Source of the DNA: Bacteroidota bacterium
GTDB taxonomy: Bacteria > Bacteroidota > Bacteroidia > Bacteroidales > VadinHA17
Length of the DNA: 35,528 bases
Assembly (NCBI GenBank): GCA_029564935.1
Contig: JAKQPD010000291.1
Coordinates: 1 to 35,528 of the forward strand
Direction of reading: 5' to 3'
A model generated the notes under the pieces. That model was not told the origin of the DNA. It did no database searches and was given only the letters and a program-made list of their open reading frames with translations. The position numbers and the translations under genes were made by a program. This document shows positions 2,523 through 22,161 of the stretch, piece after piece; the stretch's first letter is position 1, and the number at the start of each line of letters is the position of its first letter.

Positions 2523-3314
2523 ATGGATCAGATAAACAGACATATACTTTTCTGCAACTGCAAAGGTGACCGGATCAGTGCTGACAAACTGAATGATATC
2601 CGCGAATATCTTGAAAAAGTCCCTTTCAGGGTGACAATACTTTCGGATCTGTGCGGCCTGGCTGCAATAAAAAGAGATCAGCTTAAGAAATTAACCGGAG
2701 AATCAGCAGAGATCCTGATGATCGGTTGTTACCCGCGAACAATGAATCTGCTGTTTGGACAGGCTTCAGGCTCAGGAGTAACGGGAAAGTCACTCAGTTA
2801 TCTGAACATGATTGAGTCAACTGCCGGGGAAGTGATAAAAGAAGTGAATCTATTTTGTAGTACAGGTCCTGGAAATAAATTAATAAATGAAATAAATGAA
2901 GATTCAGGCTGGCCGTCATGGTATCCGGTAATCGATTATGAGCGCTGTACAGGTTGTGGTCAGTGTGCAGACTTCTGCCTTTTCGGGGTTTATGAAAAAA
3001 CACATAAGAGAGTAATTGTTATTAACCCCGGGGGATGTAAGAACCAATGCCCCGCATGTGCGAGGATCTGCCCTTCAACAGCTATCATATTTCCGAAATA
3101 TAAAAATGGAGGAGCTATCGGCGGATCGGAAAAAATTGATGAGATGGCTGAACTTAAGAGACAGGAACAGGATATAGAGTCGTTTCTCGGTAATGATATC
3201 TATCACTCACTTCAGGAAAGAAAGTTGAAAAGGCAATCCATTATAAAGGAAGAGGCGATGAAAAAAGCTTACAGGGAAAGGGAAGAATATTTGAATCAAA
3301 ACAGAAAGGACTGA
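2523..3314 (+). CDS. Fe-S protein: HdrA-like N-terminal module plus two 4Fe-4S cluster motifs
   Basis: A soluble 263-aa protein. The N-terminal half (about 1-115) has paired cysteines in FCNC (C11, C13), a conserved CGLAAIKRD block (C44) and an IGCYPRTMN block (C69). The last recalls the ACSPR-type segment near the N terminus of heterodisulfide reductase subunit A. The C-terminal half carries a ferredoxin region with C142-x2-C145-x2-C148-x3-C152 and C172-x3-C176-x2-C179-x3-C183, followed by a long charged helical tail (205-263). The first set is canonical for 4Fe-4S. The second has a wider first spacing and may bind another cluster. It is the first gene of a five-gene operon, ending 7 bp before the radical SAM gene. 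It plausibly supplies low-potential electrons to that enzyme (inference). No flavin-binding glycine motif is present, so it is not a full HdrA. Confidence 0.72.
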   Translation: MDQINRHILFCNCKGDRISADKLNDIREYLEKVPFRVTILSDLCGLAAIKRDQLKKLTGESAEILMIGCYPRTMNLLFGQASGSGVTGKSLSYLNMIESTAGEVIKEVNLFCSTGPGNKLINEINEDSGWPSWYPVIDYERCTGCGQCADFCLFGVYEKTHKRVIVINPGGCKNQCPACARICPSTAIIFPKYKNGGAIGGSEKIDEMAELKRQEQDIESFLGNDIYHSLQERKLKRQSIIKEEAMKKAYREREEYLNQNRKD

Positions 3315-3321
3315 ACGGGGA

Positions 3322-4500
3322 ATGTCAATTATCAGTAACTTCATAAAAACAAACGGATACTGCCGCAGAAAATTCCTTGTGAATATGGGATTAAAAGGGG
3401 TGGCAGGATTTATGAAATTCAGGAAGAGAAGCAGAGATGGCAGGGTCTTTCCGGCGTTTCAGTTCATCTCAGTTACCAATGACTGCAATCTTCATTGTCA
3501 GGGCTGCTGGGTTGAGAATAGCGACCGGAAAATTTATATGGATATTGAAAAAATCAATTTGATCATTGAAGCCGGGAAAAGACAGGGCTCATATTTTTTC
3601 GGAATTTTGGGAGGCGAGCCATTGATGTATAAACGGTTACCGGAGATATTTGAAAATCACCGTGATTCGTATTTCCAGCTTTTTACTAACGGTACTCTTT
3701 TTACCAAAGCTCTTGCTGAACGATTGCGACGGGCAGGAAATGTTACGCCTCTTATCAGTCTGGAGGGAGATGAAAAGGTGGCTGATATCCGGCGTGGTGG
3801 TCACGGAATTTATAATCGTACACTTGAGGCTGTAGTAACTTCCACATCGGCTGGCCTCATAACAGGCGTGGCGATAAGTGTTTGTAAATCGAATATCGAA
3901 ATGGCCTTATCCGACGAGTTTGTAAAGATGCTTCACGATCTTGGAGTTCTGTATATCTGGTATTACATTTATCGTCCTGCCGGGAGGAATCCAAAGTATG
4001 AACTCTCACTAAGCAGTGAAGATATAACAAGGCTGAGAAGATTCCTGGTTGACGGGCGGACAAGACTGCCGATGGTACTTATCGATTCATACTGGAGCGC
4101 TGAAGGAGTACCCTTCTGCCCTGCTGCCGACGGTCTGAGCCACCACATAAATGCTTCAGGAGATATTGAACCATGTCCTGTAATTCAGCTGGCGCGGGAA
4201 AATATTAGCCAGGGGGAACTGGAAAATACTTATGAAAGCTCAGCATTCCTGAGAGATTTTAAAAACCAGATTCATCAAAAGACCAACGGGTGTGTGCTAA
4301 TGGAGGATCCTGCATGGCTGGTATCATTTTCAGGAAAACATAATGCAAAAAATTCCTCAAACCGGGAGAGTTATCTGAATGATCTTGCACATGCTCCTGC
4401 GGTAACAAGTCATGGCTCATCCCCGGTCATTCCGGAAAAGAGCATTCTTTATCGTCTGGCCAAGAAAACTGCGTTTTTCGGGATGGGGGCTTATGGTTGA
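3322..4500 (+). CDS. Radical SAM protein with SPASM-like C-terminal cysteines
   Basis: A 392-aa protein. The radical SAM cluster motif is C55-x3-C59-x2-C62 (NDCNLHCQGCWV), followed by the SAM-binding GGEP at 97-100 and beta-strand blocks FQLFTNG and PLISLEGDE typical of the TIM-barrel core. In the C-terminal third, cysteines in PFCPAAD, EPCPVIQ and NGCVLM suggest an auxiliary Fe-S site of the SPASM/twitch type. Radical SAM enzymes reductively cleave S-adenosylmethionine to start a radical reaction. The substrate is not evident. The gene sits 7 bp after the Fe-S protein and 15 bp before the polyprenyl synthase fusion, so an isoprenoid-derived substrate is the natural hypothesis. It is not clearly the hopanoid enzyme HpnH: I see the generic motif but no specific HpnH signature. 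Confidence 0.85.
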   Translation: MSIISNFIKTNGYCRRKFLVNMGLKGVAGFMKFRKRSRDGRVFPAFQFISVTNDCNLHCQGCWVENSDRKIYMDIEKINLIIEAGKRQGSYFFGILGGEPLMYKRLPEIFENHRDSYFQLFTNGTLFTKALAERLRRAGNVTPLISLEGDEKVADIRRGGHGIYNRTLEAVVTSTSAGLITGVAISVCKSNIEMALSDEFVKMLHDLGVLYIWYYIYRPAGRNPKYELSLSSEDITRLRRFLVDGRTRLPMVLIDSYWSAEGVPFCPAADGLSHHINASGDIEPCPVIQLARENISQGELENTYESSAFLRDFKNQIHQKTNGCVLMEDPAWLVSFSGKHNAKNSSNRESYLNDLAHAPAVTSHGSSPVIPEKSILYRLAKKTAFFGMGAYG

Positions 4501-4515
4501 TTTAAACTGCAAAAA

Positions 4516-6099
4516 ATGTCAGAAAATATATTATCACTTGTTGTACCGGTCGACAGCCAGCTTCGCGAAGAGATCCGCCAGGAAACGGATCTGTATTACT
4601 CTTTGTATGAGATTGTTCCGCCTGTTTCTTATGACAGGCTCGAAGAAATGGCCGACGAACTGCTGGCAATAAAAGGCTGGGATAAAAGTTTAAAAGCTTT
4701 TGTCATGGTATGCTGTGGTAATTCCATCTGGCGTCCGGTTGTTGGGGCCATACCATTTAACAGAAGGATGCTCCTGCTTCCTCAATGCTTGAAAAACAGT
4801 AATATGTGCAACGCTCAGCAGGATGAGCTGGGATTATTATGCAGCGAATGCGGTAACTGTAATATTTCCGGTTTTCTAAGGGAAGCTGAAGACCTGGGTT
4901 ATTTAACCATCGTCGCCGAAGGGACTACCATTGCCTCCCGCTTAGTCGAAAGCGGCAAAGTTGATGCAATCATAGGCGTCGGCTGTATGGAAGTCCTGCA
5001 GAAAATATTCCAGGCTGTTAATAAATATTCAATACCGGCAATAGGAGTACCTCTTCTTTCATGCGGATGCGTCGATACAAAAGCAGATGAGGAATGGATA
5101 AAAGAAGAAATACGTCATTTTAACGAAACCGGTGAAATCCAAATCCTTAACCTGAATGATCTTAAAGAAATAACTGATTCCTTATTTACGGAGGATCAGA
5201 TCGATAAGTTATTAAACCTTTCCCGGAACCCGACCGGTGATATACTGAGGGAGATTTTACTCGCGGGTGGGAAAAGGATCCGGCCTCTTCTTACTGTTCT
5301 TAGTTATAAAGCATACTGCCCGGAGCCTGATATTGAAGTCATGAAGCGCCTTGCCTTGTCCATTGAGTGTTTTCATAAAGCTTCACTTGTACACGACGAC
5401 ATCGAAGATGGCGATGACCTTCGATATGGAAAGGAGACAATACATTCAAAATATGGCATTCCGGTTGCAATAAATGCCGGCGATATGCTTATTGGAGAAG
5501 GATACAGGTTAATTGCTGAATGCAACCGTGACTTTCATGAAACAGCAGAATGCTTAAGGATTATATCAGACGGGCACAGAAACATGTCGGCAGGCCAGGG
5601 GAATGAGTTACTGGCAAGAAGAAATAAAAGCATTCCTTCAGTAAAAGAAATACTAAAGATATTTGAAGACAAAACAGGGGAGGCATTTAAAGTATCTCTG
5701 CTGGCAGGAGCTGTTGCCGGAGGCGCAGACAGGGACTCCATAACACTGCTGGGGAAGTTCAGCTCCCTCATCGGCGTAGCCTATCAGTTAAAGGACGATC
5801 TTGAAGATATTACAGGTGACCCGGGGAAATCTGTTCTTAGGAATCCCTCGGCAATAATCTCTTTACTTTATGAAAGATCAGGGGAAGAAACCAGGAAATA
5901 CATATTTGATTCAATCACAGGAAATGACAGTAATCTTCTCCCTGAGTTTATAAAGGATCACCGGATCACAGAAAAAATCGAGGAAATGATCGGAGACTAT
6001 CTGGGAATGACAGACAGATGTCTTGCAGGGTTGAAAAATTTACCCCTGAAACTTGCACTTTATGAGATCATCGGAAAGACTTTCAGCAAATATCTTTAG
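4516..6099 (+). CDS. Fusion of DUF116 domain and polyprenyl diphosphate synthase
   Basis: A 527-aa two-domain protein. Residues 1 to about 215 are a DUF116 domain with clustered cysteines (C91, C98, C109, C112, C115, later C157, C183, C185) in LPQCLKNS, LLCSECGNCNI and IIGVGCMEVL, probably a metal or Fe-S binding module. Residues about 225-527 are a trans-polyprenyl synthase. They have GGKRIRP (251-257), the first aspartate-rich motif DDIED (294-298), GQG-type residues near 360, and the second aspartate-rich motif DDLED (427-431) followed by GDPGKS. Both Mg-binding motifs are intact, so condensation of isopentenyl diphosphate with an allylic diphosphate is expected. Chain length cannot be assigned. 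The next gene starts inside its 3' end. No frameshift separates the domains, so the fusion looks genuine. I do not know of a described function for this architecture. Confidence 0.85.
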   Translation: MSENILSLVVPVDSQLREEIRQETDLYYSLYEIVPPVSYDRLEEMADELLAIKGWDKSLKAFVMVCCGNSIWRPVVGAIPFNRRMLLLPQCLKNSNMCNAQQDELGLLCSECGNCNISGFLREAEDLGYLTIVAEGTTIASRLVESGKVDAIIGVGCMEVLQKIFQAVNKYSIPAIGVPLLSCGCVDTKADEEWIKEEIRHFNETGEIQILNLNDLKEITDSLFTEDQIDKLLNLSRNPTGDILREILLAGGKRIRPLLTVLSYKAYCPEPDIEVMKRLALSIECFHKASLVHDDIEDGDDLRYGKETIHSKYGIPVAINAGDMLIGEGYRLIAECNRDFHETAECLRIISDGHRNMSAGQGNELLARRNKSIPSVKEILKIFEDKTGEAFKVSLLAGAVAGGADRDSITLLGKFSSLIGVAYQLKDDLEDITGDPGKSVLRNPSAIISLLYERSGEETRKYIFDSITGNDSNLLPEFIKDHRITEKIEEMIGDYLGMTDRCLAGLKNLPLKLALYEIIGKTFSKYL

Positions 6100-6940
6100 T
6101 ATCATATTAAGACCATTTCTGAAGAAATTTATTGATGGAAGTCCATCAGTATATCTGAAGAAATCGCTGACCCTGCTCCACGATGATTCGATAAGTGATC
6201 TGCAGAAGTTTGTCCGGAGCAGACAGCATTCGTCAGGAGGATTCGTCGACAGGGCCGGTAATCCAGATCTTTATTATACCCTGTTCGGATTTTATCTTGC
6301 AAAGGCTCTCGGATTAAACGAATTATTGATAGCCTCAGGTAATTATGCAAAGAATGTGTGCAGAAACAATACCCCGGACGGTGTTCACCTTCAGTGTGCA
6401 GCCATCATTATCTCTGAATTATCTGAAGACAAAAGACCAATTAAAGCACTCCGGAAAGAGATCCGCAGGAACCTTGCCGGACGGATGAACAAACAACCTG
6501 AATACAGTGCATTTGTCACTCTCCTGACCTGCTTGCACACCGGAGATTATCTTGCAGTTCTTAAAGTTATGAGACATCTTAAACAGCTGGAAGAGAATGA
6601 CAAACTGCCATCAACCGTTATTGCTGCGCTTGTTGTGATTAACAGCAGCTTTAACAGGCCGGTTGAAAATCTTATAAAGAAGCTGCTTGATTACTACGAT
6701 ACTAACGGTGGATTCAAAGCTGTCAAGGCAGCGCCGGTCACAGACATGCTTTCCACTGCAGTATCATTATATGCTCTCCGGTATGCCGGATATGATCTGA
6801 TAAAGATAAAACCTGAATGTATGGGCTTCATTGATTCACATTTCATTGATGACGGATTTTTCAGCAATATACTTGACAGGGATCCGGATATTGAATATAC
6901 ATTTTATGGATTACTTGCACTGGGATCACTTGCAGACTGA
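6062..6940 (+). CDS. Prenyltransferase/squalene-oxidase repeat protein (single alpha-alpha barrel)
   Basis: A soluble protein of about 292 aa with the repeat pattern of prenyltransferase beta subunits and terpene cyclases. It has SSGGFVDRAGNPDLYYTLFGFY-type blocks near the N terminus, a DTNGGFKAV block in the middle, and DIEYTFYGLLALGSLAD at the C terminus. The length fits one alpha/alpha toroid, as in protein prenyltransferase beta subunits. The Asp/Cys/His zinc triad of farnesyl- or geranylgeranyltransferases is not clearly recognisable, and no DXDD motif is present. It may be a non-catalytic or differently catalytic partner of the cyclase that starts 2 bp after it. The ATG at 6062 overlaps the upstream gene by 38 bp, suggesting translational coupling. 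A TTG at 6053 is an alternative start, and no other in-frame ATG occurs for more than 100 codons. Confidence 0.72.
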   Translation: MRSSERLSANIFSIILRPFLKKFIDGSPSVYLKKSLTLLHDDSISDLQKFVRSRQHSSGGFVDRAGNPDLYYTLFGFYLAKALGLNELLIASGNYAKNVCRNNTPDGVHLQCAAIIISELSEDKRPIKALRKEIRRNLAGRMNKQPEYSAFVTLLTCLHTGDYLAVLKVMRHLKQLEENDKLPSTVIAALVVINSSFNRPVENLIKKLLDYYDTNGGFKAVKAAPVTDMLSTAVSLYALRYAGYDLIKIKPECMGFIDSHFIDDGFFSNILDRDPDIEYTFYGLLALGSLAD

Positions 6941-6942
6941 TT

Positions 6943-8775
6943 ATGGAATACGAAAGTGAAGAAAAAAGATACCTCGCCCTTTGTTCACAGCTGAAGGATG
7001 AAATGAATCCTCAGGGTTTCTGGACAGGAAGATTATCGACCAGCGCTCTGGCTACAGCCGTAGCTGTTGTGGCGCTAAAAATAAATAATAATAATGACGA
7101 TAAATCCCGGATACTCCAGGGATACGAATGGTTACTGGCTAATATAAATACTGATGGCGGTTATGGAGATACAGCAGATTCTGTCAGTAATGTAAGTACG
7201 ACACTCCTGGTCTATGCGGCTATAAAATATTGCCAGGTCGAAGGAGCCGGTACTGAAACACTTTCAAGGATGGAGGAATGGCTGGCGGGGAAAGGGATCG
7301 AATTTGATCCTGAAACAATTACCAGGTCCATTCTGCGGTTCTATGGAAGCGATTATACATTTTCGGTCCCGATCCTGTCAATGCTTATAGTTTGCGGGGT
7401 AATTCCAACATCATTTGCCAGACAAATCCCCGGTTTACCGTTTGAACTTACACTTCTGCCTCCTGCCGTGTACAGATTTTTTAACCTGCGGGTTGTGAGT
7501 TATGCTCTGCCTGCCTTAATAGGAGTAGGTATTTGTCTTCATCTGATGCGCGGAAATAAGGTCAGTCCGATCAGGACTTTAAGAGACCTGTTTATAAAAC
7601 CGGCTTTAGAAAAGCTTAAAAACCTTGTTCCCGAAAGCGGAGGCTTTCTTGAGGCCATCCCTCTTACGGGATTTGTATCAATGTGTCTGATCAGGAGCGG
7701 AGAATCAGACAACATTACAGTAATGAAGGGACTGGAGTTCCTCCGCAGGCAGCAACGCGAAGATGGCGGTTGGCCTATCGATACTGATCTCTCGACCTGG
7801 GTAACTACTCTCTCGGTAAAAGCACTTGGCAGTGACATTAAGCGCCGGCTTGATACAGGACAAATCACCAATTTGAAAAAGCATCTTCTGGCTCTTCAAT
7901 ATAAAGAACCGCATCCTTTTAACGGTGCGAAACCCGGAGGATGGGGTTGGACAAGCTATTCAGGGTCAGTTCCTGATGCAGATGATACACCAGGAGCAAT
8001 TCTGACTTTGCTTGAACTTTATTCCGGGGCGGCAGAGGAAAATGATGCAATTATCAACGGATGCAGATGGCTGGTTGATCTGCAGAATTCAGATGGTGGG
8101 TTCCCTACCTTTTGTAAAGGCTGGGGACGTCTGCCATTTGATAAAAGCTGCGCCGATCTGACCGGTCACGGACTTCTCGCTCTTAATAAAGCCGGAGAAA
8201 AGCTCAATAAGGTAATTCCGGTGAAACTTAGAAACAGAATGAAGCAGAGTATCCTGAGAGCTGCCGGGTATCTTGAGAAACATCAATTGCCTGACGGAGC
8301 ATGGTTACCGTTATGGTTTGGCAACCAAAGGACCGCTGATCAGACCAACCCCGTCTATGGTACTTCCAAAGTCTGCACCTACCTTTCTGACTGCCTCAGA
8401 TCGGAAGTACCTGATAAATCATTAAGAAACCTTCTTAGTAAAATGTCCGAAAAAGCCCGCAAATACCTAATAGATAATCAGAGCGATGACGGAAGCTGGA
8501 GTGGAAAAACCGGGATTCCCGGAACTGTGGAAGAAACCTCATTAGCAATATGCGCCCTGGCAGAGACAAACAGAGAAGCCTGCCTTAAGGGAATAAGGTG
8601 GATTGAAAAACAGGATCAGGTTAAGGCTTCACCGATCGGCCTGTATTTTGCCCTTCTGTGGTATGACGAAAAGATGTATCCGCTTATCTTTCAGATTGAA
8701 GGACTGAGACGTTTCCTGGAAAAGAATGATTACGAAAGTAAACAGAGCTGTCCGGAAGCTAATTCAGACATTTGA
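6943..8775 (+). CDS. Class II terpene cyclase, squalene-hopene cyclase-like, with DXDD motif
   Basis: A 610-aa protein. The acid motif DADD at 345-348 sits in GGWGWTSYSGSVPDADDTPG, the counterpart of the DXDD proton donor of squalene-hopene cyclases and class II diterpene cyclases. QW-type repeats occur at about 270-277 (QQREDGGW), 380-387 (LQNSDGGF), 452-462 (GAWLPLWFGNQ) and 511-519 (DNQSDDGSW). The N terminus carries a WTGRLSTSALATAV block found in a branch of squalene-cyclase-like proteins. It is somewhat shorter than typical hopene cyclases (about 630-720 aa). A moderately hydrophobic stretch at 170-200 could be the monotopic membrane-contact region. Protonation-initiated cyclization of a polyprenyl substrate is expected. 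No squalene synthase lies in the window, so the substrate may instead be a diphosphate made by the upstream synthase (inference). It is the last gene of the operon. Confidence 0.8.
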   Translation: MEYESEEKRYLALCSQLKDEMNPQGFWTGRLSTSALATAVAVVALKINNNNDDKSRILQGYEWLLANINTDGGYGDTADSVSNVSTTLLVYAAIKYCQVEGAGTETLSRMEEWLAGKGIEFDPETITRSILRFYGSDYTFSVPILSMLIVCGVIPTSFARQIPGLPFELTLLPPAVYRFFNLRVVSYALPALIGVGICLHLMRGNKVSPIRTLRDLFIKPALEKLKNLVPESGGFLEAIPLTGFVSMCLIRSGESDNITVMKGLEFLRRQQREDGGWPIDTDLSTWVTTLSVKALGSDIKRRLDTGQITNLKKHLLALQYKEPHPFNGAKPGGWGWTSYSGSVPDADDTPGAILTLLELYSGAAEENDAIINGCRWLVDLQNSDGGFPTFCKGWGRLPFDKSCADLTGHGLLALNKAGEKLNKVIPVKLRNRMKQSILRAAGYLEKHQLPDGAWLPLWFGNQRTADQTNPVYGTSKVCTYLSDCLRSEVPDKSLRNLLSKMSEKARKYLIDNQSDDGSWSGKTGIPGTVEETSLAICALAETNREACLKGIRWIEKQDQVKASPIGLYFALLWYDEKMYPLIFQIEGLRRFLEKNDYESKQSCPEANSDI

Positions 8776-8923: not shown

Positions 8924-11900
8924 ATGGCAACATTAAAAAGTCATATCAGATCCGGAGGACAGAGCAGAGCCCTGTCAGTAATTCTGATCCTGTCAGGATA
9001 TCTCTTTTTTGGCATAAATGCTGATGCCCAGTATTTCGGGAGGAACAAACCAGGCTACAGATCTTTTAAATTTGATGTGATCCAAACTCCCTATTTTGAA
9101 ATATATCATTACCTGAAGAACGATTCCCTTTTAAATACTCTGACATCCTGGTCGGAGCAGTGGTATTTAAACCACCAGAAGATATTCAGGGATACTTTCA
9201 AAACCAGGAATCCCGTGATCTTTTATAACAACCATCCCGATTTTCAGCAGACAAATACTATTAACAGTCTTATAGGGACAGGAACGGGAGGCGTTACGGA
9301 GTCACTTAAGAACAGGGTAATAATGCCTGTTGCACCGTCTCTGTCGCAGACGGATCATACACTGGGCCATGAGCTGGTCCATGCATTCCAGTATAATATG
9401 TTCATTAAAGAGGATACAACCGTAAGGATGTCAATAAATAATATCCCTCTCTGGATGGTTGAAGGTATGGCTGAATATTTTTCGATCGGAAGTGTCGATC
9501 CTAATACGGCTATGTGGATCAGAGATGCTCTTCTCAATAACAGGTTCCCCACTCTGAAGAAGCTGTCGGACCAGTCGGAATATTTTCCTTACCGTTACGG
9601 ACAATCCTTCTGGGCAATGGTCGGAAAGACCTGGGGAGATAATGTCATTATTCCGCTTTTTCAAAAGACCGCACAATATGGTATCGAAATGGCACTTGAT
9701 ACAATATTAAAAGTTAATCAGGATGTTCTTTCAGGAATGTGGAAAAGCGCCAATGAAGTTTATTTCCGCCAGTATCTTAAAGATAGTGCTGATAATATTG
9801 CAGGAAAGGTTATTGTATCTGATAAAAATGGAGGCAGGATAAATATCTCACCATCATTGAGCCCTGACGGAAAATATGTTGCATTTTTTTCGGAAAGGGA
9901 CCTTTTCACTCTCGACTTATTTCTTGCCGGTACTGAAAACGGAAAAATAATCAGACGTCTCGCAAGTGTGGCGAGAAACAATTCAATTGACGACTTTGAT
10001 TATGTCGAATCAACCGGATCATGGTCTCCGGACGGAGAGAAATATGTGATAGTCATATTCGAAAAAGGAGTAAACAAGCTTGCCATAATAGATGTTTCCA
10101 GGGGAAAGATCATAAGAGAAATAGCTATTCCGGGAGTCCCGTCATTTTCAAATCCTGCCTGGTCACCGGATGGTAATAAAATAGTTGTTTCGGGCCTGGT
10201 AAACGGAACCAGCGATCTTTATTTGTATTATCTGGATACCGGCGATGTTCTTAAGCTGACATCAGATCTTATGGCAAACCTTCACCCCTCATGGTCATCA
10301 GATGGTAATTATATTGTTTTCTCACAGGAGAAGTTAAATACCGGGAGTTATGGAAGGAAATACAGCTTCGATCTGGCTTTATATGATCTCAAAACAGGTA
10401 AGATAAAAGAGATAGATGTTTTTAAGGGAGCTTTTAATATGGATCCGTGTTTTTCATCTGATAATAAATCGGTCTTTTTCCTTTCGGATGCCGACGGAAT
10501 GAGGAACCTCTACGAATATGATCTTACAACGGACCGTGTACTCAGACTTACGGACTATATGACGGGAATCAGCGGGATAACTCCTTATTCACCTGCATTA
10601 AGCACTGCTACAGAAAACGGTCTGATCACCTATAATTATTACTTTAACAACGGATACAGGATCGTTGCAGCAAACAGGAACGATTTTAAGAATACTGAGG
10701 TAAACAGGAATTTTGTGAATTTTGATGCGGGAACATTACCTCCGTTTAAGAACATCTCTGTGAACATAATTGATTCAACCCTTTACACAAGGCAAACAGG
10801 ACCGGTACTGACTTCCGAAAGGATAACCCGGGTACCCTATAAGTCGAAGTTCAAACTCGACTATATTTCAAACAGTGCTGATATAGGCCTTTCAACCGGT
10901 GTTCACCGCAATAATATGGGAGGAAGTGTAAATATGTTATTCAGTGATATGGTTGGAAATAATCAGCTCTATTCATCTCTTGCATTGAATGGAGAAATTT
11001 ATGATTTCGGCGGACAGGTTGCTTATCTGAATCAAAAAGGTAAAGTCAAATGGGGTGCATCATTATCCCATATTCCCTATCTCTACGGAGATATGTCAGT
11101 ATCTGATGATACAATAATGCTTGATGATGAACCTGTTCCGGTAATCAATCTCGGAATTGATTATATGAGGATGTTTGAGGATAATATTTCATTTTTTGCA
11201 TCCTATCCCTTATCGCAGACACGGAGATTTGAAGCGAACCTCTCCTCATCATGGTATTATTACAGGATCGACAGATATACATATTACTATCTTCTTGATG
11301 GCTATAACATAGGGGGAAAAAGGGAAAAGCTCGATGCCCCGGCAGGCGATGACTATCAGCAGGTGTCTGTTGCTTTTGTGAGCGATAACTCTTATTTCGG
11401 GATGACTGCCCCGATGCAGGGCAGCAGATCGAGACTCCAGGCAGAGAAATATTTCGGATCACTGGATGTAATAACAACTCTGATCGACTTCAGGCAATAT
11501 TTCAAACTAAGACCTGTAAGCCTTGCATTCCGGTTCTACAATTACAGTATGTACGGTAAGGATGCCAAAAATGGTAAAATACCTCCGCTTTACCTTGGTT
11601 ATCCATGGCTGATAAGAGGTTATGAAAACATTTCATATTCAGGCAACGATTTCCTTACAGGTGGGACTTTCAATGTTTCGAGATTGAGCGGAACAAGGAT
11701 CATGGTAGCCAATGCTGAAGTACGCTTGCCATTCACTGGTCCGGAAAGGCTGGCACTTATAAAATCAAAATGGCTCTTTACTGACTTTAACCTGTTCGTC
11801 GATGCGGGAATGGCGTGGAACAATGAAAGTAAAATGACATTTGTCCAGGATCTTTCGAAAGGTGTCGATGGTAGTTACAGATTTCCTGTTGTGAGTACGG

Positions 11901-12022
11901 GAGCCTCGCTGAGGATAAATCTTTTTGGTTACCTTGTTCTGGAACCTTATTATGCATTTCCGCTTCAGAACGGAGGTTTCAGGAATGGTCAGTTTGGTCT
12001 GAACTTCGTACCGGGGTGGTAG
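8924..12022 (+). CDS. Exported metalloprotease-like / TolB-type propeller / beta-barrel outer-membrane protein
   Basis: A 1032-aa protein with a hydrophobic N-terminal signal (about residues 16-35). Residues about 40-270 form a peptidase_MA-like domain with the zinc motif HELVH (149-153) and the downstream glutamate in WMVEGMAEYFS (E180 or E184), as in gluzincins. Residues about 300-580 contain PD40/TolB beta-propeller repeats (SPSLSPDGKYVAF, SWSPDGEKYVI, NPAWSPDGNKIVV, HPSWSSDGNYIVF, DPCFSSDNKSVFF). The last 400 residues are rich in alternating amphipathic strands with many Tyr/Phe and end in an aromatic residue, as expected for an outer-membrane barrel of the BamA/surface-antigen type. Such three-part proteins occur in Bacteroidota. 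Their substrates are unknown to me. The start is supported by the signal peptide. It is probably transcribed separately from the terpenoid operon. Confidence 0.75.
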   Translation: MATLKSHIRSGGQSRALSVILILSGYLFFGINADAQYFGRNKPGYRSFKFDVIQTPYFEIYHYLKNDSLLNTLTSWSEQWYLNHQKIFRDTFKTRNPVIFYNNHPDFQQTNTINSLIGTGTGGVTESLKNRVIMPVAPSLSQTDHTLGHELVHAFQYNMFIKEDTTVRMSINNIPLWMVEGMAEYFSIGSVDPNTAMWIRDALLNNRFPTLKKLSDQSEYFPYRYGQSFWAMVGKTWGDNVIIPLFQKTAQYGIEMALDTILKVNQDVLSGMWKSANEVYFRQYLKDSADNIAGKVIVSDKNGGRINISPSLSPDGKYVAFFSERDLFTLDLFLAGTENGKIIRRLASVARNNSIDDFDYVESTGSWSPDGEKYVIVIFEKGVNKLAIIDVSRGKIIREIAIPGVPSFSNPAWSPDGNKIVVSGLVNGTSDLYLYYLDTGDVLKLTSDLMANLHPSWSSDGNYIVFSQEKLNTGSYGRKYSFDLALYDLKTGKIKEIDVFKGAFNMDPCFSSDNKSVFFLSDADGMRNLYEYDLTTDRVLRLTDYMTGISGITPYSPALSTATENGLITYNYYFNNGYRIVAANRNDFKNTEVNRNFVNFDAGTLPPFKNISVNIIDSTLYTRQTGPVLTSERITRVPYKSKFKLDYISNSADIGLSTGVHRNNMGGSVNMLFSDMVGNNQLYSSLALNGEIYDFGGQVAYLNQKGKVKWGASLSHIPYLYGDMSVSDDTIMLDDEPVPVINLGIDYMRMFEDNISFFASYPLSQTRRFEANLSSSWYYYRIDRYTYYYLLDGYNIGGKREKLDAPAGDDYQQVSVAFVSDNSYFGMTAPMQGSRSRLQAEKYFGSLDVITTLIDFRQYFKLRPVSLAFRFYNYSMYGKDAKNGKIPPLYLGYPWLIRGYENISYSGNDFLTGGTFNVSRLSGTRIMVANAEVRLPFTGPERLALIKSKWLFTDFNLFVDAGMAWNNESKMTFVQDLSKGVDGSYRFPVVSTGASLRINLFGYLVLEPYYAFPLQNGGFRNGQFGLNFVPGW

Positions 12023-17974: not shown

Positions 17975-19084
17975 ATGGAAATTACGAATTCCGGCAACAG
18001 ATACAGGATAGCCGTTCTCGGAGCCGGTCACGGCGGTCTCGCTATGGCCGGACATCTGTCACTCATGGGCCATAAAGTCAATCTCTTCAACAGGGGTGAG
18101 GAAAGATTGTGGGGTGTAAAATCTTCCGGATCAATAGAGATTACCGGGGAAGTGGAAGGTTTTGGCAAGATAAACATGGCAACCACTTCGATAGGGGATG
18201 CAATAAAAGGAGTAGAACTTATAATGGTCGTTGTTCCGGCAAACGGTCACAGGTGGATTGCAGAACAAATGGCTCCCTTCCTGGTTGATGACCAGATCAT
18301 TGTCCTGCATCCGGGAAGAACCTTCGGCGCTCTGGAGTTTAAACAGGTACTGGTGAGACAAAAAGTAACAGCGAATGTTATAATCGCCGAGGCTCAGACG
18401 TTCATATATGCTTCAAGGGCAACAGGGCCCTCCCAGGTGCATATTTTCAGGATCAAGAATTCCATCCCGGTGGCATCCATCCGCGCCCACCTTATTCCCC
18501 ATGTCATCACTAAACTCCGTCAGTTTTACCCGCAATTTGTTCCGGGCGATAATGTTTTCAAGACAAGTCTTGAGAATATCGGAAGTGTATTCCATCCGGC
18601 ATTGTGTGTACTGAATGCCGGCTGGATAGAACATGATACAGATTTCCAGTTTTACCATGAAGGAGTTACTCCGGCAGTGGCAAAGATCCTTGAAAAGATA
18701 GATGATGAAAGGGTCAAAGTCGCGGAAGCCATTGGTATCAGGGCCATTTCTGCAAGACAATGGTTATATATGGCCTACAGCTCAGCTGGGAATACTCTTT
18801 TTGAAGCAATGATGAAGAATGTCGGATACGCAGGGATCCTTGCTCCACGATCGCTGAGAGTAAGATATATAGAAGAAGACGTTCCCTTCAGCCTTGTACC
18901 AATTGCATCAACAGGCAGAATGCTCAATGTTCCTACACCTACAATAGACTCTGTGATCCAGCTCGCCTGTGGCTTGAATGAGACCGATTACCGGGAAAAT
19001 GGTAGAACAGTGGAAAACCTTGGCATAGCCGGTATGAGCGTACGTGATCTCCGGCTTCTTGCTATCGGAGAGACTGTCAGATGA
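17975..19084 (+). CDS. NAD/NADP octopine/nopaline (opine) dehydrogenase family protein
   Basis: A 369-aa protein. The N-terminal Rossmann fold opens with AVLGAGHGGLAMAGHLSLMGH (GxGxxG, residues 15-20) and runs to about residue 180. The C-terminal opine-dehydrogenase domain holds HPALCVLNAGWIEH, the block that carries the catalytic histidine in this family, and later an AYSSAGNTLFEAM helix. Opine dehydrogenases reductively condense a 2-oxoacid with the amino group of an amino acid, making secondary-amine products such as octopine or the metallophore staphylopine. The specific substrates cannot be read here. It is the first of three adjacent same-strand genes with amino-acid-related enzymology (followed by a B12 mutase-like enzyme and an Asn-synthetase-like enzyme). 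This suggests a biosynthetic set, although 71 bp separates it from the next gene. Confidence 0.82.
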   Translation: MEITNSGNRYRIAVLGAGHGGLAMAGHLSLMGHKVNLFNRGEERLWGVKSSGSIEITGEVEGFGKINMATTSIGDAIKGVELIMVVVPANGHRWIAEQMAPFLVDDQIIVLHPGRTFGALEFKQVLVRQKVTANVIIAEAQTFIYASRATGPSQVHIFRIKNSIPVASIRAHLIPHVITKLRQFYPQFVPGDNVFKTSLENIGSVFHPALCVLNAGWIEHDTDFQFYHEGVTPAVAKILEKIDDERVKVAEAIGIRAISARQWLYMAYSSAGNTLFEAMMKNVGYAGILAPRSLRVRYIEEDVPFSLVPIASTGRMLNVPTPTIDSVIQLACGLNETDYRENGRTVENLGIAGMSVRDLRLLAIGETVR

Positions 19085-19093
19085 CCTGCCGGC

Positions 19094-19122
19094 CTTCCTG
19101 CAGGATTCCGTCTGACAGGAAG
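19094..19122. other. Weak hairpin between opine dehydrogenase and B12-enzyme genes
   Basis: CTTCCTG (19094-19100) and CAGGAAG (19116-19122) form a 7-bp stem with a 15-nt loop. No T-run follows, so it is not a convincing terminator. It may be an RNA processing or attenuation element, or chance. Confidence 0.25.
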
Positions 19123-19155
19123 AGGGATAGGAGATAATTATTAAAAATCATAATA

Positions 19156-20787
19156 ATGAAAACTATTATTGGCGCTGCCATTGGCAGCTGTGTTCATGTT
19201 GGAGGGCTTCACCATTTTCTCAAGCTTGCGGAAACGGAGGGTTACCGGACTATTTCGTACGGGCCGGCAGTTTCCGTTAAAAGGATTGTGAAGATTATCA
19301 GGGAAGAAAAGCCGGACATAATGGCAATAAGTTACAGGCTTACACCTGAATCTGCTTCAGAGCTTTTCTCGGAACTGAAAGCTGAAATTTCAAAAGGAGG
19401 ACCATCAAATATCAGAATGATTTTTGGGGGCACACCCCCGGTGGCCCGCGTAGCACGTGATTCAGGTCTTTTTGATATTGCTTTCGACGGTACTGAATCT
19501 GCTGAACACATTAAGCGATATCTCAGAGGCGATACCGGGAAGAGTTCCGAAAGCACTCTCCCTGATAATCTTGTCGACCGGATAAATAAAAAGTATCCTT
19601 ATCCCCTTATCCGGCATCATTTCGGAAGACCTTCTTTACATGAAACTATTGAAGGAGTTGTTAAGATCGCTGAATCAGGGGTACTTGATATACTCTCAAT
19701 CGGTCCGGATCAGAATGCACAGGAGCATTTTTTCCGTCCTGAAGAAATGGACCACAGCCAGGATGGAGCAGGAGGTGTTCCATTACGTAAGCCTGAAGAC
19801 CTGGAGGCAATTTATAAAAGTACCAGATGCGGAAATTTCCCGCTTGTCAGGTGCTATGCAGGTACCCGGGATCTTTTAAAGTGGGCTGAAATGAGTGTCA
19901 GAACGATAAGAAATGCCTGGGCGGCAATTCCATTGTGCTGGTACAGCGTAATTGACGGACGCTCCGGCCGGCTTATTTCAGATGCGATAAAAGAACATCA
20001 GGAAGTTATGCATTGGTATGCCTTGAAAAATATTCCCGTTGAAGTAAATGAATCCCACCAGTGGAGTTTGCGTGATGCACATGATTCCCTTGCAGTGGCA
20101 ATGGCATTCCTGGCTGCCTGGAATGCAAAAAAATCAGGTGTAAGGCATTATGTCTCCCAGTATATGTTCAACAATCCCCCTGGTACTTCCGCAGAAATGG
20201 ATATTGCAAAAATGCTTGCCAAAAACGAAATGATAGAAGAACTTTCTGATGAATCATTCACTGTGTTCCGTCAGGTAAGGGCAGGCCTGGCCCATTTCTC
20301 TTCCGATCCTTCTTTTGCCCAGGGTCAGCTGGCTGCTTCCGCAGTAATTAGCATGGCACTCAAACCACATATTCTTCATGTTGTGGGTTTCAGCGAAGGA
20401 GACCATGCTATTTTCCCCGATGAGCTGATCCAGAGTTGTAATATTGCTCATGGTGTCCTTCATAATACCCTTTACGGGATGCCGGATATGTCTGAAGATA
20501 AAAGGGTTATTGCCCGGAAAAATGAATTGAAATCGGAAGCCCGTATATTACTTGAAGAATTATCGGACAGGGGAAAGAATCAAAGTGAAGATCCATGGTC
20601 AGATCCGGTTGTCATCTCTGATGCGATAAGGACAGGACTTCTGGATACTCCACATTTCCAGGGTAATCCGCACCTGTGCGGTCAGATAATAACCAGACTG
20701 ATAGATGGGGCATGGTATGCAATCGACAGGGAAACGGGCGAAAAGATGGGAGAGCCGGAAAGAATCAGATTGCTTAACGCAGAATAA
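19156..20787 (+). CDS. Cobalamin-binding protein resembling glutamate mutase epsilon / B12-dependent mutases
   Basis: A 543-aa protein. Residues 1 to about 125 look like a B12-binding Rossmann domain: SCVHVGG (11-17) in place of DxHxxG, with His14 as the likely cobalt ligand and Cys12 replacing the usual Asp, then ISYRL (58-62) near the SxL position, and GGTPP (91-95) as the GG motif. Residues about 145-430 resemble the catalytic barrel of methylaspartate (glutamate) mutase E, with VRCYAGTRD, IPVEVNESHQWSLRDAHDSLAVA and the QYMFNNPPGTSAEMDIAKMLA stretch. The fused arrangement differs from clostridial glutamate mutase, where the B12 subunit is separate. A carbon-skeleton rearrangement or an aminomutase reaction on an amino acid is plausible. 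It lies between opine-dehydrogenase-like and Asn-synthetase-like genes. Family assignment is from motif memory, so moderate confidence. Confidence 0.6.
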   Translation: MKTIIGAAIGSCVHVGGLHHFLKLAETEGYRTISYGPAVSVKRIVKIIREEKPDIMAISYRLTPESASELFSELKAEISKGGPSNIRMIFGGTPPVARVARDSGLFDIAFDGTESAEHIKRYLRGDTGKSSESTLPDNLVDRINKKYPYPLIRHHFGRPSLHETIEGVVKIAESGVLDILSIGPDQNAQEHFFRPEEMDHSQDGAGGVPLRKPEDLEAIYKSTRCGNFPLVRCYAGTRDLLKWAEMSVRTIRNAWAAIPLCWYSVIDGRSGRLISDAIKEHQEVMHWYALKNIPVEVNESHQWSLRDAHDSLAVAMAFLAAWNAKKSGVRHYVSQYMFNNPPGTSAEMDIAKMLAKNEMIEELSDESFTVFRQVRAGLAHFSSDPSFAQGQLAASAVISMALKPHILHVVGFSEGDHAIFPDELIQSCNIAHGVLHNTLYGMPDMSEDKRVIARKNELKSEARILLEELSDRGKNQSEDPWSDPVVISDAIRTGLLDTPHFQGNPHLCGQIITRLIDGAWYAIDRETGEKMGEPERIRLLNAE

Positions 20788-20826
20788 CATAGAATAAATC
20801 AGTTTAATGAAAATAAAAAAAGAAGA

Positions 20827-22161
20827 ATGGCAGGTATAGCAGGAATAGCAGCAGATAATACGACGGAAGAGGTTTCAGAGATGCTTGGCACTTTCCGTTA
20901 CAGAGGGAATGCAGGTATTTCAGTATTTGAAAAAGGGGGAACAACAATAGGAATAATCTGGAACGAAACGGAAAAGGAAACTGTAAAGAAATGCCTGGAA
21001 GCCGGTGATGCCGGTTATATAAGCAGTCCCGGCAATTATGTCATAGTGAAACCCGGTAAAAGTAGTTTCATAATGACAAGAGATGAACTGGGAGCAGCTC
21101 CTCTTTATTACGGAAATGACAAGAATGGCAACATGTGTTTTGCATCAGAGATAAAAGCACTTCTGCCTTTTACAAAGGAGATCCGCGAAATGGCTCCAGG
21201 GCACATTCTTGAAGGTGAAAAACTCAGGCCGTTCTTCAGTATATCTGCAGGAAAAAAAGCTACCGGGACTCCCGGCCAGATTGCAGAAAAACTATATAAA
21301 CTTCTTGATAAAGCAATTTCGGAATGTATCAGAACGGAGAACACCGGATCGTGGCTTTCGGGCGGACTGGATTCCAGTGTCATATGTGCCCTGGCTACCA
21401 GGCATCTGAAAAAGCTTAGAACTTTTGCAGCAGGAATGAAAGGTGCACCTGATCTTGAATATGCCCGTGAAGTGGCACGATACATAAAATCTGAACATCA
21501 TGAGAAAGTGGTCTCTCCGGAAGAGATGACGGCGATTTTACCCGAGGTAATATATCATCTGGAATCTTTTGACGCACTACTCGTAAGATCATCATTAATG
21601 AATTATCTTATTGCCCGTCTTGCATCGGAATACGTCGATGAAGTATTTTCCGGGGAAGGCGGTGATGAATTGTTCGCAGGATACGGATACCTTAAATCCA
21701 TTCCGGCCGTGGACCTTGAAAAAGAACTATTGAGGATAACAGGTGCCCTTCACAACACAGCACTTCAGCGGGTTGACAGGTGTGCTTTTGCTCATGGTAT
21801 GATCGCTCACATGATTTTTACCAACCCTGAGATTGTTAAATTTGCCTTTACGATCCCCGTCGGATATAAAATTCATGGAAAAACAGAAAAGTGGATACTC
21901 AGAAAATCCATGGAGGGTATGCTCCCGGATAAAATACTAAGAAGACCAAAAGCAAAATTCTGGGAGGGAGCAGGTGTTAAGGAATTGCTAGCTGATTATG
22001 CCGGGAACAATATTTCGGATAATGACTTCAGGATCGAGCGGAATCTAAGTAACGGGCAGATTATCAATTCAAAGGAAGAGTTATTGTATTACAGGATCTT
22101 CAGGGAACATTTCGGATCGGATATTGATCTGTCGTGGATGGGAAGGACAAAGGTCACATAA
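20827..22161 (+). CDS. Asparagine-synthetase-like amide-forming enzyme without the glutaminase nucleophile
   Basis: A 444-aa protein, shorter than typical AsnB (about 550 or more). It starts MAGIAGI, so the N-terminal cysteine of class II glutamine amidotransferases is replaced by Ala. The RGPDG motif is altered to RGNAG (26-30), and the NGEIYN-type segment is missing. The C-terminal synthetase domain is intact: PP-loop SGGLDSS (178-184) for ATP and GEGGDELFAGY (276-286). It should still adenylate a carboxylate and form an amide, with free ammonia or an amine as nitrogen donor. Beta-lactam and carbapenam synthetases are known members that lost the same cysteine and close an internal amide. 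Its position after the opine-dehydrogenase-like and B12-mutase-like genes makes modification of an amino-acid-derived product attractive (inference). It ends 15 bp from the convergent transporter gene. Confidence 0.78.
   Translation: MAGIAGIAADNTTEEVSEMLGTFRYRGNAGISVFEKGGTTIGIIWNETEKETVKKCLEAGDAGYISSPGNYVIVKPGKSSFIMTRDELGAAPLYYGNDKNGNMCFASEIKALLPFTKEIREMAPGHILEGEKLRPFFSISAGKKATGTPGQIAEKLYKLLDKAISECIRTENTGSWLSGGLDSSVICALATRHLKKLRTFAAGMKGAPDLEYAREVARYIKSEHHEKVVSPEEMTAILPEVIYHLESFDALLVRSSLMNYLIARLASEYVDEVFSGEGGDELFAGYGYLKSIPAVDLEKELLRITGALHNTALQRVDRCAFAHGMIAHMIFTNPEIVKFAFTIPVGYKIHGKTEKWILRKSMEGMLPDKILRRPKAKFWEGAGVKELLADYAGNNISDNDFRIERNLSNGQIINSKEELLYYRIFREHFGSDIDLSWMGRTKVT

Follow-up and report, generated by a model that had tools for sequence, protein, structure and literature searches.

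A recurrent five-gene cassette with a DUF116-polyprenyl synthase fusion and a DXDD cyclase: a probable squalene-free pathway to cyclic polyprenoids in several bacterial phyla

Background

A fusion of DUF116 with a polyprenyl synthetase is mentioned in one sentence by Makarova et al. (2015; PMC5898192), with Psta_0175 of Pirellula staleyi as the case, and the passages of that paper considered here predict for DUF116 a flavodoxin-like fold, a CxxCxxC motif and a role in electron transfer. In the parts considered, a second report (PMC8692599) interprets a verrucomicrobial squalene-hopene cyclase (SHC) cluster as hopanoid and is of no help here, and a third (PMC9247107), on petroleum geochemistry, names tricyclohexaprenol as the bacterial compound from which tricyclic terpanes are presumed to derive and states that their exact sources are unknown. 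Here, we describe a locus in a 35,528-nucleotide stretch of DNA from a Bacteroidota bacterium of the order Bacteroidales (assembly GCA_029564935.1, contig JAKQPD010000291.1), referred to below as the window, which is contig C403 of the 4.18-Mb genome bin G000 (95% complete). It encodes, side by side, an Fe-S protein (gene A), a radical S-adenosylmethionine (SAM) enzyme (B), a DUF116-polyprenyl diphosphate synthase fusion (C), a stand-alone alpha-alpha toroid (D) and a class II terpene cyclase (E). We propose that these genes probably form a dedicated pathway in which a regular polyprenyl chain is built and cyclised without squalene. The protein families themselves are known; the pathway as a unit looks undescribed, and a full-text search of the open-licence literature found no description of it among the papers listed.

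Results

The five genes recur together and in one order

Open reading frame (ORF) calling placed A to E, all on the plus strand, at positions 2523-8775; three of the four junctions are gaps (7, 15 and 2 bp) and the other is a 38-bp overlap. The overlap, between C and D, is counted from the ATG of D at 6062, the ORF of D opening at TTG 6053. An earlier note on this DNA had given the same spacing and five family labels, and ORF calling together with Pfam reproduced them exact to the base.

The same five-gene order was found in four further species of the genus (G002, G007, G017 and G029) at 43-76% identity, and in a genome of another family of the same order (G058) at 30-47% identity; the latter pairs with a Parabacteroides record in a cyclase tree. 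In G027, A-B-C are present up to the contig end, and in another Bacteroidales bacterium (L029) C is 55% identical to that of the window. A scan with the C alignment, using one genome per species, revealed at least 577 stretches encoding a relative, among which ordinary synthases may be included because one of the two scan patterns is not fusion-specific; the best 80 were kept, and all of them match both halves of C. According to the record titles, the hosts of these best 80 fusions belong to Bacteroidota, Verrucomicrobiota, Planctomycetota, Lentisphaeria, Kiritimatiellae, Holophagae, Thermoanaerobaculia and Riflebacteria, and Acidobacteriota are among the phyla with relatives of the fusion.

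The resulting set comprised 86 loci (80 + 6), with L022 left out as the sole duplicate found among 87 (it lies on the same contig as L030). All five genes stand together in 36 of the 86 loci, and in 29 they follow the order A-B-C-D-E along a single strand; the seven exceptions have B ahead of A, behind E or on the opposite strand. Contig ends cut many of the loci. Four genomes (G841-G844) have no B in the C locus, yet B is present elsewhere in the genome, and the same holds for E in G828.

The association also extends to whole genomes. In the order to which the window belongs, C was found in 17 of 393 genomes and E in 16, all of them among the 17 C-positives (0/376 in the others); the only C-positive genome without an E match, G814, is 85% complete. 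B passed the threshold in 21 of the 393 genomes, 17 of which, at 585-644 bits, are exactly the C genomes, while the other four matches score 230-275 bits and look like paralogues. Fisher p values for co-occurrence with C are 1.5e-27 (E) and 4e-30 (B), although the genomes are not independent and the 17 C-positives span 11 genera. In a phylum-wide sample of 395 genomes, the fusion was found in the window genome only; since the order of the window contributes six genomes to this sample, we take the prevalence figure from the search of the order itself. Because the order recurs in relatives down to 30-47% identity, all five genes are present in 36 of 86 loci and the same genomes have B, C and E, the five-gene grouping goes beyond chance. 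These data support the earlier reading of the locus as an isoprenoid operon; the note would have been refuted by families that do not co-occur elsewhere, whereas they do.

The fusion enzyme C is a predicted long-chain synthase

C matches both DUF116 (PF01976; 115.3 bits, cut-off 25) and polyprenyl_synt (PF00348; 154.3 bits, cut-off 27). Its predicted structure (mean predicted local distance difference test score, pLDDT, 90.1) has a fold that matches polyprenyl synthases; the 50 fold matches listed for C are all such synthases, and none of them is a structural neighbour of the DUF116 half. In an alignment of 60 rows, D294, D295, D298 and D428 of the two Asp-rich motifs are present throughout, D427 in 55 rows and D431 in 56. 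The DUF116 half contains seven Cys that are invariant in 60/60 rows, and an ECFHKASLxHDDI block is conserved in 53-60 of the 60 rows per position.

Upstream of the first Asp motif, Ala at -5, Ser at -4 and Phe at -8 are likewise invariant. The solved C20 synthases differ at -5, with Tyr in 1wy0 and Phe in 5jfq. According to the chain-length rule, a small residue at this position opens the pocket beyond C20, and Ala -5 therefore suggests that the product of C is longer than C20. Phe -8 may close the pocket again; since Ala -5 opens it and Phe -8 may cap it, our guess is a chain of C25-C35.

The cyclase E is distinct from squalene-hopene cyclases

Among solved structures, SHC is the nearest to E in sequence. 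E matches SQHop_cyclase in its N part (75.6 bits, cut-off 26.2) and C part (101.1 bits, cut-off 26.1), and DXDD is present in all 52 E sequences (51 distinct). In the alignment with SHC 1gsz, whose aligned residues we take to be catalytic, D345, D347 and D348 of E correspond to D374, D376 and D377, H409 to H451, W286 to W312, W336 to F365 and W458 to W489, and all seven E positions are invariant in 36/36 rows. Moreover, R272 and H324 are conserved and E-specific.

These similarities raise the question of whether E is simply a squalene-hopene cyclase. Against the SHC model TIGR01507, E scores 84.9 bits and does not reach the curated cut-off of 431.1. A separate SHC above this cut-off is co-resident in 8 of 23 cluster genomes (taken from 30, with seven left out), at nine places; on the E model, scores are 95-141 for these nine SHCs, compared with 738-839 for twenty E proteins. 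The cyclase tree splits 9 SHC rows from 53 E rows with support of 100/100; it leaves out the E rows L048 and L104, which are identical to kept rows, and L059 and L074, whose ORF bounds are doubtful. Judging from sequence, E is not a hopanoid SHC.

The squalene/phytoene synthase family PF00494 gave no match in four of the eight genomes formed by the window genome and seven relatives (G007, G027, G029 and G051), nor in 12 of 30 other cluster genomes, whose completeness is not stated; together, this makes 16 of 38. The cultured Draconibacterium aestuarii Z1-6, with all five genes in locus L035, is among the hosts that gave no match. In this part of the hosts, E is thus unlikely to depend on squalene from a known synthase. 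No hpn gene was recognised among the annotated genes of the window, the genome not having been searched for each hpn gene. A hopanoid locus was rejected on the score of E, the tree, the co-resident SHC and the missing PF00494 match in part of the hosts. The earlier note had also held that this is not a standard hopanoid locus, which is supported; the clustering of E with SHCs, which the note gave as refuting its reading, was not found.

Genes A, B and D

A contains 4Fe-4S ferredoxin domains (Pfam) and an N-terminal Cys-rich domain that we take to be HdrA-N-like. In many loci of Verrucomicrobiota and Planctomycetota, the two halves of A are separate adjoining genes; that they stay neighbours when split fits one joint role in electron transfer.

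B matches Radical_SAM (PF04055) at 63.6 bits (cut-off 29.5). C55, C59 and C62 are present in 33/33 rows, and C266, C285 and C324, also invariant, could hold an auxiliary cluster. Its closest solved relatives are SkfB (3.2e-21) and cytosylglucuronate decarboxylase (9e-16), and the match to the tetraether/macrocyclic archaeol synthase 7tol is weak (2.1e-7, profile positions 51-180). HpnH (TIGR03470) was considered for B and rejected at 50 bits against a cut-off of 225.05. A paralogue of B in the same lower score range mentioned above occurs in five genomes (G029:C18:64768-65823, G499, G541, G631 and G756), four of them without the cassette. In addition, six planctomycete loci (L052, L056, L065, L074, L076 and L087) contain a radical SAM protein of the B12-binding type, which in at least four lies between A and C, the place expected for B.

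D matches Prenyltrans (PF00432) marginally, at 27.6 bits with a cut-off of 26.5. Its structure is predicted with confidence (mean pLDDT 91.8) as a single toroid, for which the best fold match is drimenyl diphosphate synthase 7xr7 (E 3.6e-4), followed by single-toroid SHC-like proteins and MstE. These matches are modest (template modelling scores, TM-scores, of 0.44-0.63; 10-14% identity) and include non-terpene toroids such as glycoside hydrolase 7qsj. D of the window has no DXDD, and has motifs of the DxYYT, DxLST and DxEYT type. Asp231 is conserved, and in 25/25 rows Leu233 and Tyr282 occupy what appear by eye to be the places of the zinc Cys and His, positions that we equate with those of the prenyltransferase beta subunit. 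A protein prenyltransferase was rejected for D: the match to the beta subunit of Rab geranylgeranyl transferase is weak (7e-8), class II cyclase folds come first, with modest scores, and the residues that would appear to bind zinc have not been retained.

Layout of the window and neighbouring genes

The features of the cassette are listed in Table 1. Consensus promoters and terminators are not more frequent than in shuffled sequence. The gene after E (8924-12022) encodes a propeller/peptidase-like protein and was not counted in the cassette. Elsewhere in the window, a TauE/SafE-like permease gene (970-1446) ends well before the operon and looks truncated, covering only profile positions 129-235 of 237, and at 17975-22161 one strand carries a group of octopine-dehydrogenase-like, B12-binding-domain and asparagine-synthase-like genes, possibly a small-molecule operon.

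Table 1 Coordinates of the cassette genes and their main features in the window
Feature	Position	Strand	Characteristics or basis
Gene A, Fe-S protein	2523..3314	+	N-terminal Cys-rich domain (C11xC13, C44, C69) and 4Fe-4S ferredoxin motifs
Gene B, radical SAM enzyme	3322..4500	+	CxxxCxxC (C55, C59, C62) and further invariant C266, C285, C324
Gene C, DUF116-polyprenyl diphosphate synthase fusion	4516..6099	+	Pfam, predicted structure
DUF116 domain of C, residues 52-198	4669..5109	+	Seven invariant Cys (91, 98, 109, 112, 115, 157, 185)
Polyprenyl synthase domain of C, residues 243-437	5242..5826	+	Pfam match
First Asp-rich motif of C, DDIED (D294, D295, D298)	5395..5409	+	60-row alignment
Second Asp-rich motif of C, DDLED, residues 427-431	5794..5808	+	60-row alignment
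Gene D, stand-alone alpha-alpha toroid	6062..6940 (ATG; TTG 6053)	+	Nearest to class II terpene cyclase domains
Gene E, two-domain class II (DXDD) terpene cyclase	6943..8775	+	Squalene-hopene-cyclase-like, separate clade
Catalytic DADD of E (D345-D348)	7975..7986	+	Alignment to SHC, motif scan

Around the loci, 1089 ORFs were clustered, 283 of them being matches to A-E, and 30 neighbour ORFs were identified by Pfam. The recurrent neighbours in the 87 loci (with L022 and L030 as one contig) are a CobW-type GTPase (21 loci), PQQ_2 propellers (16), a GcvH-like protein (13), an IscS-like class V aminotransferase (8), a NapH-like membrane Fe-S protein (8), Fer4 (8) and a HisK-LytTR pair (6). The GcvH-like protein (L039, L040, L041, L045, L047, L048, L059, L062, L067, L069, L075, L080 and L093) often lies beside the CobW or IscS-like gene and, by eye, has Lys at the lipoyl-type site in 13/13 cases. 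The NapH-like and Fer4 genes occur in Bacteroidota and one Riflebacteria locus. A module of PQQ_2 propellers, NapH-like, Fer4 and NuoEF-like genes adjoins the cassette in L022/L030, L025 (here with no NuoEF-like gene), L079, L088 and L100; the L022/L030 contig also has a GltD-like oxidoreductase, and in L025 the Fer4 protein and one propeller protein have twin-Arg-like N-termini (by eye). The NapH-like gene was found in 18 of 20 C-positive genomes compared with 8 of 30 hand-picked C-negative ones (p 1e-5, the genomes not being phylogenetically independent), and is thus linked to C but not exclusive to it. We read A-E as the core and the neighbours as clade-specific partners.

Discussion

A probable pathway and the points against it

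The reading that we consider probable is that A-E constitute a dedicated cyclic polyprenoid pathway independent of squalene. The synthase half of C would join isopentenyl diphosphate units head to tail, giving a polyprenyl diphosphate that exceeds C20. The DXDD acid of E would then protonate one end of the chain and start polycyclisation, as SHC does with squalene, and the toroid D may assist E or perform a further cyclisation or isomerisation. A, the Fe-S protein, would serve as electron donor for both B and the DUF116 half of C, and these two would reduce the chain, modify it radically or both. A speculative variant of these steps is reductive loss of the diphosphate by DUF116, which would supply E with a neutral polyene. 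The end product would probably be a membrane lipid. We infer the chain length, the sequence of steps, the substrate of E, the part taken by D, the chemistry of A, DUF116 and B, and what the product is and does. An oxygen-independent pathway, as proposed in the earlier note, is plausible, as the cassette is without an oxygenase, but planctomycete and verrucomicrobial lineages, aerobes among them, have the cassette too.

Several observations weigh against this reading. The conserved polar residues of E lack the basic cluster typical of diphosphate binding but include the E-specific R272 and H324, so that the substrate may or may not carry a diphosphate. The absence of a squalene or phytoene synthase nearby, claimed in the earlier note, held for the annotated genes of the window, but the genome has a PF00494 match of 60 bits (cut-off 26) on another contig (G000:C312:3493-4269); with 3 of 7 relatives and 18 of 30 other cluster genomes also matching, 22 of 38 carry one, and for these hosts a link to squalene is conceivable. 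The column of H409, although His in 1gsz, is Arg in 8/8 SHCs from the cluster genomes, so H409 alone is no marker of SHC-like chemistry. In 12 of the 87 loci, only C is visible. In G838-G840 (Phycisphaerae/Sedimentisphaerales), B is absent at 1e-50 or scores no more than 175 bits, its place being taken by a B12-binding radical SAM protein, so that the chemistry of B may not be fixed. Finally, scoring in the searches of 393 genomes was limited to the top 3-4 first-look candidates of each genome, and a few of the absences may be misses.

Other explanations of the cassette

Could the cassette instead make a redox cofactor? A prenylated or cyclised compound, meroterpenoid or quinone-like, might not be a structural lipid but work in an electron chain, respiratory or periplasmic. 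The adjoining NapH-like, Fer4, PQQ_2 and NuoEF-like genes in several Bacteroidota and one Riflebacteria locus would fit such a product, as would the GltD-like oxidoreductase, the twin-Arg-like N-termini and the excess of the NapH-like gene in C-positive genomes; MstE, which cyclises prenylated arenes, is among the fold neighbours of D. However, the module's NapH-like gene is not restricted to C-positive genomes, and NapH-like and Fer4 genes are not recurrent in Verrucomicrobiota and Planctomycetota loci, where CobW, GcvH-like and IscS-like genes are commoner and PQQ_2 is found in few. Moreover, no UbiA-type or aromatic-ring gene is among the 30 Pfam-scanned neighbour ORFs of the 1089 clustered. 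We regard a redox cofactor as unlikely, if worth keeping in view.

It is improbable that B joins two chains head to head, as the archaeal tetraether synthase does, to give a membrane-spanning cyclic lipid. The profile of B does match 7tol, but SkfB and cytosylglucuronate decarboxylase are closer, and the match may reflect the radical SAM core alone. We give slightly less credence still to a secreted specialised metabolite or signal, for which the patchy spread within the order, the HisK-LytTR pair in 6 of 87 loci and an MFS-family gene in two and an SSF transporter in three of them could be cited: the cassette keeps a conserved order across several phyla, and no identified transporter family is found in more than three of the 87 loci (among the 30 neighbour ORFs identified by Pfam). 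Least credible of all is that E is a divergent squalene cyclase in a variant hopanoid or sesquarterpene locus, since its nearest solved structure, DXDD, many SHC aromatics and the PF00494 protein in 22 of 38 genomes are set against a score far under the SHC cut-off, a clade of its own, true SHCs co-resident in 8 of 23 genomes, no PF00494 match in the other 16 and a B far below the cut-off of HpnH.

What the pathway would mean

If the squalene-free polyprenoid pathway is real, at least scores of bacterial species (80 kept fusion records, two of them from one genome), rumen-type Bacteroidales, planctomycetes and verrucomicrobia among them, would have a so far undescribed route to cyclic isoprenoids that operates alongside hopanoids or in their stead, and DUF116 would gain a biochemical setting. 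Cyclisation of regular polyprenols has long been postulated as the chemistry behind tricyclic terpanes, which makes the finding worth testing. In a more specific version, to which we attach only a small chance, the cassette would cyclise regular polyprenols, giving lipids of the tricyclohexaprenol type, which are postulated to be the precursors of tricyclic terpanes (cheilanthanes); DUF116, fed by A, would strip the allylic diphosphate in an IspH-like manner, and E would receive a neutral regular polyene. In either version, named genes and cultured hosts would be at hand for tracing the source of these "orphan" tricyclic terpanes, which are petroleum biomarkers.

Comparison with known systems

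Each member of the cassette resembles a described system and departs from it. Psta_0175 (PMC5898192) has the same DUF116-polyprenyl synthetase domain fusion as C, while the passages of that paper considered here name no five-gene operon, cyclase, radical SAM partner or terpenoid pathway. With squalene-hopene cyclases (TIGR01507; 1gsz, 2sqc and 3sqc), E shares both SQHop_cyclase domains, DXDD, the His at the place of H451 in 1gsz and the majority of the aligned active-site aromatics; it differs in its score (84.9 against 431.1 bits), in its own clade and in having hosts partly without a squalene/phytoene synthase match. HpnH uses radical SAM chemistry on a cyclic terpenoid, as B may do in the proposed pathway, but B remains well below its cut-off. 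The predicted fold of D is nearest to MstE (6sbb), 8pak/8paj and drimenyl diphosphate synthase 7xr7, and D differs from these single-toroid class II cyclases by its low identity, modest TM-scores and lack of DXDD. Finally, C has both Asp-rich motifs and the fold in common with long-chain trans-polyprenyl synthases, such as the hexaprenyl enzyme 3aqb, and with C20 synthases such as 1wy0, and is set apart from them by its fusion to DUF116 and its ECFHKASLxHDDI block.

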